In this document: positions 5,106 through 59,540 of the stretch, piece after piece
Numbering within the stretch: position 1 is the stretch's first letter
How the letters are laid out: each line of letters starts with the position of its first letter
Notes under the pieces: generated by a model
Seen by the model: only the letters and a program-made list of their open reading frames with translations
Databases searched by the model: none
Told to the model about the DNA's origin: nothing
Assembly (NCBI GenBank): GCA_014764515.1
Contig: JACXWD010000017.1
Span: forward strand, 2,757 to 64,166
Source: Candidatus Polarisedimenticola svalbardensis
Lineage (GTDB): Bacteria > Acidobacteriota > Polarisedimenticolia > Polarisedimenticolales > Polarisedimenticolaceae
Reading direction: 5' to 3'
Length of the DNA stretch: 61,410 bases
Position numbers and translations under genes: made by a program

Positions 5106-5999
5106 ATGCCCTGGTTCAAAAAAGAGAAAGCGCCGAAACAGCCTGCTGTGGACAGGCGGTTCCAGATGCCCGAAGGGCTGTGGGTCAAGTGCGACGGCTG
5201 CCGGGAAATCATCTACAAAAAAGAGGTCGTTCTCAACGCCAACGTTTGTCCGAAGTGCAACTACCACTTCCGGGTCAGCGCCAGGGAACGTTTGACCGCT
5301 CTTCTGGACGACGGCAAGTACGTCGAGTTCGACCAGGATATCTCTCCTCTGGATCCGCTGGAGTTCAAGGACACCAAGCCGTACAAGGGGAGGTTGAAGG
5401 ACTACCAGAAGAAAACCGGCGAAAAGGACGCGCTGATCGCCTGCCGCGGCACTATCGGCGGACAGCCGGTCATCATGGCGGTCATGAATTACGCGTTTAT
5501 GGGCGGCAGCATGGGGTCGGTCGTCGGCGAGAAAGTGACCCGTTGCGCCGAAGCCGCTTTGAGGGAACGTGCGCCGCTGATCGTGATCTCCTGTTCCGGT
5601 GGCGCCAGGATGCAGGAGGGCGCCCTGTCGTTGATGCAGATGGCGAAGATATCCTCTGCACTTGCGATGCTGGACGATGCCGGTGTGCCGTTCCTGTCGA
5701 TCCTTACCGATCCGACCACAGGTGGTGTGACCGCGTCCTACGCCATGTTGGGCGACATGAACATTGCCGAACCAAGGGCGTTGATCGGGTTTGCCGGTCC
5801 CAGGGTCATCGAGCAGACGATTCGGCAGACACTCCCCAGCGGATTCCAGCGCAGCGAATTCCTGATAGAGCACGGCATGCTGGACTGTATCGTCGAGCGG
5901 TCGAAGATGCGGGACGTCCTGATCCACTGCCTGCGGTTCATGACCTCGGATCAGTCAGCCCAGGCAGGTTCCGTCACACCATTCATGAACCGGGACTAG
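5106..5999 (+). CDS. accD: Acetyl-CoA carboxylase carboxyltransferase, beta subunit
   Basis: The 297-residue product is the beta half of the carboxyltransferase that moves CO2 from biotin-BCCP to acetyl-CoA, the first step of fatty acid synthesis; the partner AccA is not in this window. The N-terminal zinc ribbon is complete (Cys29, Cys32, Cys48, Cys51). The crotonase-like core has SCSGGARMQEGALSLMQMAK and LTDPTTGGVTASYAMLGD, both characteristic of AccD. ATG 5106 gives the usual MPWFKK-type start; a TTG at 5067 would add 13 residues without family support. The TAG stop is immediately followed by the repeat element at 6000. Confidence 0.95.
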   Translation: MPWFKKEKAPKQPAVDRRFQMPEGLWVKCDGCREIIYKKEVVLNANVCPKCNYHFRVSARERLTALLDDGKYVEFDQDISPLDPLEFKDTKPYKGRLKDYQKKTGEKDALIACRGTIGGQPVIMAVMNYAFMGGSMGSVVGEKVTRCAEAALRERAPLIVISCSGGARMQEGALSLMQMAKISSALAMLDDAGVPFLSILTDPTTGGVTASYAMLGDMNIAEPRALIGFAGPRVIEQTIRQTLPSGFQRSEFLIEHGMLDCIVERSKMRDVLIHCLRFMTSDQSAQAGSVTPFMNRD

Positions 6000-6287
6000 T
6001 TTCGGGGACACCTTAAAATTCAAGCCAGCCGTAAGTCAGCTGATTGGAGCTGCCCGCATTAAGCAGCCCCCTCCTCTTCGATTGCAGCGCCCTTGTGCAA
6101 CCGTCTTGAAGTGACGATTTAAAAAAGAGTCCCGCTTGCGCGGGACTGTTTTCAAATCGCCACTTCGAGACGGTTAATAATAAGAGGATGTTGGATGGGG
6201 CAGTGAGACTGTATTCGATCACCACGGCACAGGTGATCCCGAATTTAAGGGTGTCCCCGAAACCCTAGTTACGTGCCTGTCCCCGAA
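6000..6287. mobile_element. Nested palindromic non-coding element, copy 1
   Basis: A 288-base stretch without a credible gene lies exactly between the convergent stop codons of accD and the cobalamin adenosyltransferase. It starts with TTTCGGGGACACC (6000-6012), ends its inner unit with the inverse GGTGTCCCCGAAA (6250-6262), and then has GTGCCTGTCCCCGAA (6273-6287), the right half of an outer hairpin seen whole at 59496-59539. The core shares long identical blocks with copy 2 at 40531-40845: GTCAGCTGATTG, CAGCGCCCTTGTGCAACCGT, and a 77-base stem. No transposase is present, so this looks like a non-autonomous element, perhaps moved by a REP-associated (Y1/RAYT) transposase elsewhere; that last point is inference. 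Confidence 0.75.
6099..6175. other. Conserved 77-base stem-loop in element copy 1
   Basis: The 15-base arms 6099-6113 and 6161-6175 pair with one wobble, then CGATTT (6115-6120) pairs with AAATCG (6154-6159), and an apical hairpin GTCCCGC-TTGC-GCGGGAC closes at 6129-6146. Compared with copy 2 (40653-40729), two arm positions change on both sides so that pairing is kept (T-A to C-G and A-T to G-C) and the wobble becomes a normal pair. This is evidence that the folded form matters, as RNA or single-stranded DNA. The active strand is unknown. Confidence 0.7.
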
Positions 6288-40530: not shown

Positions 40531-40845
40531 TTTCGGGGACAGGCACGAAACCCGGGTTTTGGGGACACCCTTGGGGGGCCGGGTAGACGTCAGCTGATTG
40601 AGATCACCCGGCTGAAGTAGACACATCCACTTCGATTTCAGCGCCCTTGTGCAACCGTCCTGGAGTGACGATTTAAAAAAGAGTCCCGCTGGTGCGGAAC
40701 TGTTTTCAAATCGACACTCCAGGACGGTTAATCATAAGAAGTTGGATAGGGCTGAGAGGCCGGATCCGAACTGCATGGCACGGGTGCCTCACTCTTACCT
40801 TTCAAGGGTGTCCCCGAAACTAGGGTTTCGGTTGCTGTCCCCGTT
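40531..40845. mobile_element. Nested palindromic non-coding element, copy 2
   Basis: The 340-base gap between htrA and the next regulator is filled by this element. It opens with TTTCGGGGACAGGCAC (40531-40546), then a second end GGGGACACCC (40561-40570), the conserved core with the stem at 40653-40729, the inverse inner end GGGTGTCCCCGAAA (40806-40819), and a decayed outer end GCTGTCCCCG (40834-40843). Thus the inner unit seems to sit in the loop of an outer hairpin like the empty one at 59496-59539. No credible gene is inside. It differs from copy 1 in much of the outer core, so the copies are not recent duplicates. Confidence 0.75.
40653..40729. other. Conserved 77-base stem-loop in element copy 2
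   Basis: Arms 40653-40667 and 40715-40729 pair perfectly over 15 bases; CGATTT/AAATCG continues the stem and GTCCCGC/GCGGAAC forms the tip with one C-A mismatch. Against copy 1, two arm pairs changed on both strands together. The spacing and the poly-A/T internal segment (AAAAAA facing TTTT) are kept. Confidence 0.7.
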
Positions 40846-59484: not shown

Positions 59485-59495
59485 TAATTCGGTAA

Positions 59496-59539
59496 TTCGG
59501 GGACAGGCACAAAACCCGGGTTGCGTGCCTGTCCCCGAA
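59496..59539. repeat. Simple GGGGACAGGCAC hairpin between convergent genes
   Basis: TTCGGGGACAGGCAC (59496-59510) and GTGCCTGTCCCCGAA (59525-59539) are perfect inverse copies around a loop containing the palindrome AACCCGGGTT. It is the undisturbed form of the outer hairpin of the elements at 6000 and 40531. It stands 11 bases after one stop codon and one base before the TAG of the convergent gene. Confidence 0.9.
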
Positions 59540-59540
59540 A

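Follow-up and report, generated by a model that had tools for sequence, protein, structure and literature searches.

The window analysed here, a stretch of 61,410 nucleotides of Candidatus Polarisedimenticola svalbardensis, carries two copies of a dispersed repeat which, comparing sequences, we take with a probability of about 0.75 to be a miniature, non-autonomous mobile element of REP/TIR type; the enzyme that spreads it would be a RAYT/TIRYT-group transposase (Y1, HUH, IS200-like), whose gene is still present in the genome between the same repeats. Dispersed copies, unrelated gene contexts, shared nested ends, bare or repeat-only sites in a sister species, frequent abutment to TAG and compensatory evolution of a long stem are all directly seen. 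A preliminary description had presented the stem as a free-standing non-coding element, a view that is not supported in this form: the stem is the interior of what appears to be a transposable repeat, and the inverted ends of this repeat are shared with the Y1 transposase gene.

A dispersed unit with nested inverted ends

The stem at 6099-6175 and its counterpart at 40653-40729, both correctly placed in the preliminary description, form the centre of a 263-bp unit (Table 1). Its ends are the inverted repeats TTTCGGGGACACC / GGTGTCCCCGAAA, and most copies are nested in a second pair, GTTTCGGGGACAG...CTGTCCCCGAAAC, so that the whole repeat covers about 310 bases. The extent proposed earlier, 6000-6287, is one unit followed by a half-repeat, and the feature is larger than first described; copy 2 with its outer repeats covers 40531-40843. 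The block CAGCGCCCTTGTGCAACCGT is common to both window copies, as had been noticed. The full length of the unit can be aligned in fourteen copies, with GGGGACA-type inner ends in all of them except where a contig end cuts the copy (C22, C44, C85 and G1_C237), and most repeat units carry GGGGWSAS, as GGGGACAG and GGGGACAC. CGGG/CTAG flanks the inner unit on both sides, but it is part of the outer repeat, and no target duplication is established. A protein-coding interior was considered for a 70-aa minus-strand open reading frame lying over copy 1; the frame is not kept across copies.

Table 1. Positions of the repeat and its parts in the window
Feature	Positions	Strand	Remarks
Element copy 1 (263 bp)	6000..6262	+	directly after the accD TAG stop (5997-5999); same insertion in the sister species
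Copy 1, left inner terminal repeat TTTCGGGGACACC	6000..6012	+	
Copy 1, conserved left-arm part	6036..6098	+	contains block 6072-6095, TCCTCTTCGATTGCAGCGCCCTTG; column conservation averages 0.93-0.94 in the copies
Copy 1, 77-nt covarying hairpin	6099..6175	+	
Copy 1, apex hairpin with minus-strand T-run, intrinsic-terminator-like	6128..6147	-	
Copy 1, right inner terminal repeat (GGTGTCCCCGAAA)	6250..6262	-	
Copy 1, right outer half-repeat CCCTAGTTACGTGCCTGTCCCCGAA	6263..6287	-	
Copy 2, left outer repeat TTTCGGGGACAGGCACGAAACCCGGG	40531..40556	+	abuts the TAG stop codon of a trypsin/PDZ protease gene
Element copy 2 (263 bp)	40557..40819	+	
Copy 2, 77-nt covarying hairpin	40653..40729	+	
Copy 2, right outer repeat (CTAGGGTTTCGGTTGCTGTCCCCG)	40820..40843	-	
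Bare palindrome, outer repeats ATTCGGGGACAGGCAC...GTGCCTGTCCCCGAAAC, no hairpin core	59495..59540	.	between genes; third window site with the same outer repeats

The preliminary description counted two copies and would have been refuted by a lack of others. Both window copies are real and others exist, which makes two an undercount: there are nine in the genome of the window (G000, a draft of 3.69 Mb in 180 contigs). The one other member of the genus compared (G001, also a draft) has five, including a truncated copy that has diverged strongly; in its accD region G001 is identical in sequence to the record 'uncultured Acidobacteria bacterium FO_M_Acidobacteriota_03.1' (Acidobacteria MAG). With strict filters, a covariance model of the stem matched just these two genomes out of 100 and none of the 98 others, relatives as distant as phylum level; by this search the repeat is restricted to one genus. 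A phage or plasmid origin was discarded when a search of viral contigs for a related pattern and a blastn search of plasmids both came back empty. Among some 85,000 genomes, the sole match outside the genus to an exact 19-mer is in a Micrarchaeota record. It is a chance match, at a site that reads like what we take to be a dCTP deaminase gene.

The outer repeat is far more abundant than the complete unit: allowing at most one mismatch, GTTTCGGGGACAG has 28+25 occurrences in the genome, versus 2+0 for the reversed control pattern. These occurrences take the form of bare palindromes of about 50 bp, of palindromes with short unrelated loops, of hairpin-bearing units, and of the flanks of one Y1_Tnp gene. 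One further unit, at G000:C178 (1501-1660 of the extracted locus), has both arms of the element and no stem, and looks like a deletion derivative.

The genes beside the copies, called from open reading frame length and Pfam matches, are unrelated: they include accD, a cobalamin adenosyltransferase, an HtrA-like protease, NtrC-type regulators, a cytochrome c, a methyltransferase, SmpB and an aldolase. For this very reason we rejected a system that pairs an RNA with the product of an adjacent gene, such as a retron-like or omega-RNA-like one. Most copies sit directly behind the stop codon of a gene; C22 and G1_C237 are at gene 5' ends. Few tandem sites are informative on how the element is oriented relative to transcription. 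TAG, often a stop codon, precedes 18 of 50 outer units (CTAG in 8 cases, ATAG in 7, GTAG in 3). An open reading frame at G000:C44 seems to extend into the left outer repeat, in which case the repeat itself would provide the stop codon.

The transposase locus and the sites in the sister species

An IS200-like Y1 transposase gene (PF01797, Y1_Tnp) occupies one conserved chromosomal locus in the two species (G000:C54 and G001:C55). Nested GTTTCGGGGACAG repeats flank it, at 5907 and 6784 in G000:C54. The right inner repeat of G001:C55 is GGTGTCCCCGAAACCC, as at the end of the element. The left inner repeat of the transposase locus is of the GGGACAGGCATA kind, not GGGGACACC, a point against the favoured reading. 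Both proteins have the motifs NHVH and YIELNP; a C-terminal helix-turn-helix (HTH) was not detected at a Pfam E-value of 0.001. NHVH, YIELNP and a C-terminal HTH characterize TnpAY1 subclass 2.1, which according to its authors probably corresponds to TIRYT (PMC6006769). The C54/C55 enzyme may be of the RAYT/TIRYT type, these two motifs matching subclass 2.1.

Comparison of the two species gives a view of sites with and without the interior. Where the window has copy 2, the sister species has a bare palindrome only, between the same two genes. The site orthologous to that of C22 also holds a bare palindrome and that of C85 is bare, while those of C76 and C139 have a different repeat, GGGGTCAGG, instead. 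In both species the accD copy occupies one and the same position and has no left outer half-repeat, which makes it an old shared insertion. Elsewhere, flanking sequences suggest that G000:C126 and G001:C4 occupy one insertion site, with interiors about 60% identical that belong to different subfamilies; this suggests replacement or repeated insertion there.

Most likely the repeats are mobilized by the Y1 transposase that they flank, for which the bare or repeat-only sites in G001 are indirect evidence. IS200/IS605 and TnpAREP enzymes use a single-stranded DNA hairpin together with a 5' tetranucleotide guide (PMC8266576); following these enzymes, the segment would move as single-stranded DNA, the transposase binding folded single-stranded TTTCGGGGACA ends beside a TAG-like guide. 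In that intermediate the palindromic middle would be folded too, and it may be kept partly by this folding and partly by correction of one arm against the other during replication. A position behind stop codons would make the element tolerable to the host and, where it is transcribed, would give the mRNA 3' end a long hairpin.

Pairing and conservation in the interior

Folding of the surrounding 288-296 nt gives z of about -9 at both stems, and no shuffled sequence is as stable. The three pair changes first reported between the window copies are exact (arm position 8, T-A to C-G; position 11, A-T to G-C; position 9, T.G to T-A), and it was rightly supposed that paired positions do not vary independently. 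Over 13 copies, 7 of the 31 pairs changed on both sides and 96.2% of the cells pair, values reached by none of 500 shuffles; when the partner is shifted by one column, pairing falls to 41-49%. Adding a diverged fourteenth copy brings this to 8 pairs and 22 cells with both sides changed. Changes placed independently on the copy tree, in the number observed, produce a mean of 4.6 compensated cells and at most 20, so that 22 is reached in 0 of 3000 simulations, and 8 pairs in 1 of 3000. In the most diverged subfamily (G1_C4 and G1_C237) the sequence of the stem is largely replaced on both sides and the pairing is retained. Pairing is therefore maintained beyond what shared ancestry accounts for: the covariation of the stem is real.

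There are exceptions inside the helix. Pair 6131-6144, at the apex, is broken in the second copy (C-G to C.A at 40685-40698), a change missing from the preliminary description, and the apex hairpin is absent from G1_C4 and G1_C237. Some mismatches, such as that of pair 6107-6167, recur in several copies. An outer helix CCTCTT/AAGAGG, proposed from single-sequence folding, is unsupported by the alignment in the register tested. As the preliminary description had surmised, no named family fits: with Rfam 15, no family scores above its gathering threshold, weak hairpin matches lying far below the cut-offs, and a known structured RNA family was discarded as an explanation.

Conservation extends beyond the stem. 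A core of about 170 nt (6036-6205), made of an unpaired block and the stem, is conserved across subfamilies, unlike the right arm. Conservation of the unpaired block 6072-6095 equals that of the stem itself, which suggests an extra contact with protein or RNA. To be sure, a transposase that recognizes only ends does not predict a conserved middle, and this stands against the favoured reading. At the accD site, the left arm is 93% and the stem 96% identical between species, to be compared with 164 of 234 (70%) third codon positions of accD, and the right arm is far less similar than left arm and stem. The two right arms differ in type, that of the window copy at 6000 being nearest to C149 and C76, that of the sister species to C22 and C126, which suggests exchange between copies and so weakens the case for constraint. 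The similarity of the core looks like constraint, and exchange with other copies could also cause it; in any event it needs constraint, transfer, or a donor unassembled in G001.

The pairing could be kept by the need for a single-stranded DNA fold, by arm-to-arm correction, or by a role in RNA at the 3' end of messages. The earlier description saw selection on folded RNA or single-stranded DNA as the simple explanation; maintenance of pairing stands, but selection on the fold is not the sole explanation: when a palindrome is replicated, correction of one arm by the other can itself produce compensatory changes. Mutation mechanics might even be all there is, template switching converting one arm to match the other in the absence of any selection on the fold. 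Every copy is indeed a long near-perfect palindrome, subfamilies are distinguished by entire stem blocks that changed together (as in G1_C4 and G1_C237), and mispaired cells are split evenly, with 11 G.U and 10 A.C. Yet this reading leaves the conserved unpaired block of the left arm unexplained and sits poorly with mismatches as lasting as that of pair 6107-6167, and we hold it doubtful as a complete account. The even split of wobbles means that maintenance of the stem shows no visible dependence on one RNA strand, and it gives no support to RNA specifically. It weighs in particular on the idea that a hairpin transcribed after the stop codon acts as a terminator or shields the 3' end of the mRNA, host selection keeping the pairing: one-strand RNA selection should favour G.U. 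This idea would suit the location of most copies next to a stop codon, the apex GTCCCGC-loop-GCGGGAC, terminator-like with its minus-strand T-run, the terminator-like minus-strand hit with a CTTTTTT tail in both window copies, and the conservation of the core at accD above third codon positions. It is unlikely all the same, since the apex is lost in the diverged subfamily, two copies lie at gene 5' ends, and the sister species does without the element where the window has copy 2.

Alternatively, the mobile element might carry a small RNA that acts in trans: left-arm block and stem would be transcribed internally and target other RNAs or the transposase mRNA. This would account for the strong conservation of the unpaired block beside a covarying stem and for a core that is, at one orthologous site, under constraint by comparison with the right arm; a link of bacterial MITEs to small RNAs is drawn in the accessible part of PMC5896051. 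We consider it quite improbable, with no promoter-like match within copy 1, no strand asymmetry among wobble pairs, no Rfam family, and an element confined to one genus. A broader proposal, in which a functional module of structured RNA or single-stranded DNA (unpaired 5' block plus long stem) resides in the repeats and is selected in its own right, the TIRYT system spreading a regulatory element to gene 3' ends genome-wide, also strikes us as distinctly unlikely. For the function of the core, single-stranded DNA folding or palindrome correction is favoured, and a 3'-end RNA hairpin comes next.

Relation to known repeat systems

The element is most likely a mobile repeat of the published TIRtron/REP kind, and its conserved interior is the unusual part. 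TIRtrons consist of a Y1 gene flanked by inverted repeats with GGGGWSAS, which are also dispersed as dimers; one of the TIRYT groups defined for them is that of Acidobacteria (Di Nocera et al. 2013, PMC3733652). Likewise, the Y1_Tnp gene here is flanked by the same inverted repeats with GGGGWSAS. By contrast, some repeat pairs here enclose a conserved interior of about 230 nt with the 77-nt covarying stem; no mention of such an interior was found in the passages of the TIRtron description consulted. With REP, BIME and REPIN sequences (RAYT, TnpAREP), the element shares short palindromes downstream of genes, inverted pairs, an often TAG-type tetranucleotide in front and a Y1 HUH transposase (PMC8266576, PMC3116915). 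It differs from REP/BIME in an interior far longer than a simple REP doublet and in its tetranucleotide: GTAG/GTGG precedes GTAG-type REP/BIME sequences, and GTAG does not prevail here, with 3 of the 50 outer units. Bacterial MITEs are 70-300 bp long, with terminal inverted repeats (TIRs) of 15-30 bp and no coding capacity, as defined in PMC3733652. The present unit resembles them in its size (263 bp), inverted ends, lack of a conserved open reading frame and 14 copies, but its ends belong to a Y1/IS200-like system, not to a classical insertion sequence.

TIRYT systems are widespread, and no functional test of their mobility was found in the TIRYT literature searched. Two sister species with several bare or repeat-only sites offer a traceable case of TIRYT-type repeats gaining or losing a large conserved interior, and the covarying core permits a direct test for RNA or single-stranded DNA functions of such repeats beyond transposition. 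A caution goes with this: covariation within a palindromic mobile repeat is, alone, no evidence of RNA.

Three further Y1 genes are present in G000 (C15, C10 and C180), each with a different G-run inverted repeat (GGGGTCAGGCCCCTTTT, GGGGACATTGCACGTT and GGGGGACCGTCCCGG). Judged by these repeats, several TIRtron types coexist in one genome, and the ends of the element could be spread by another of its four Y1 genes.
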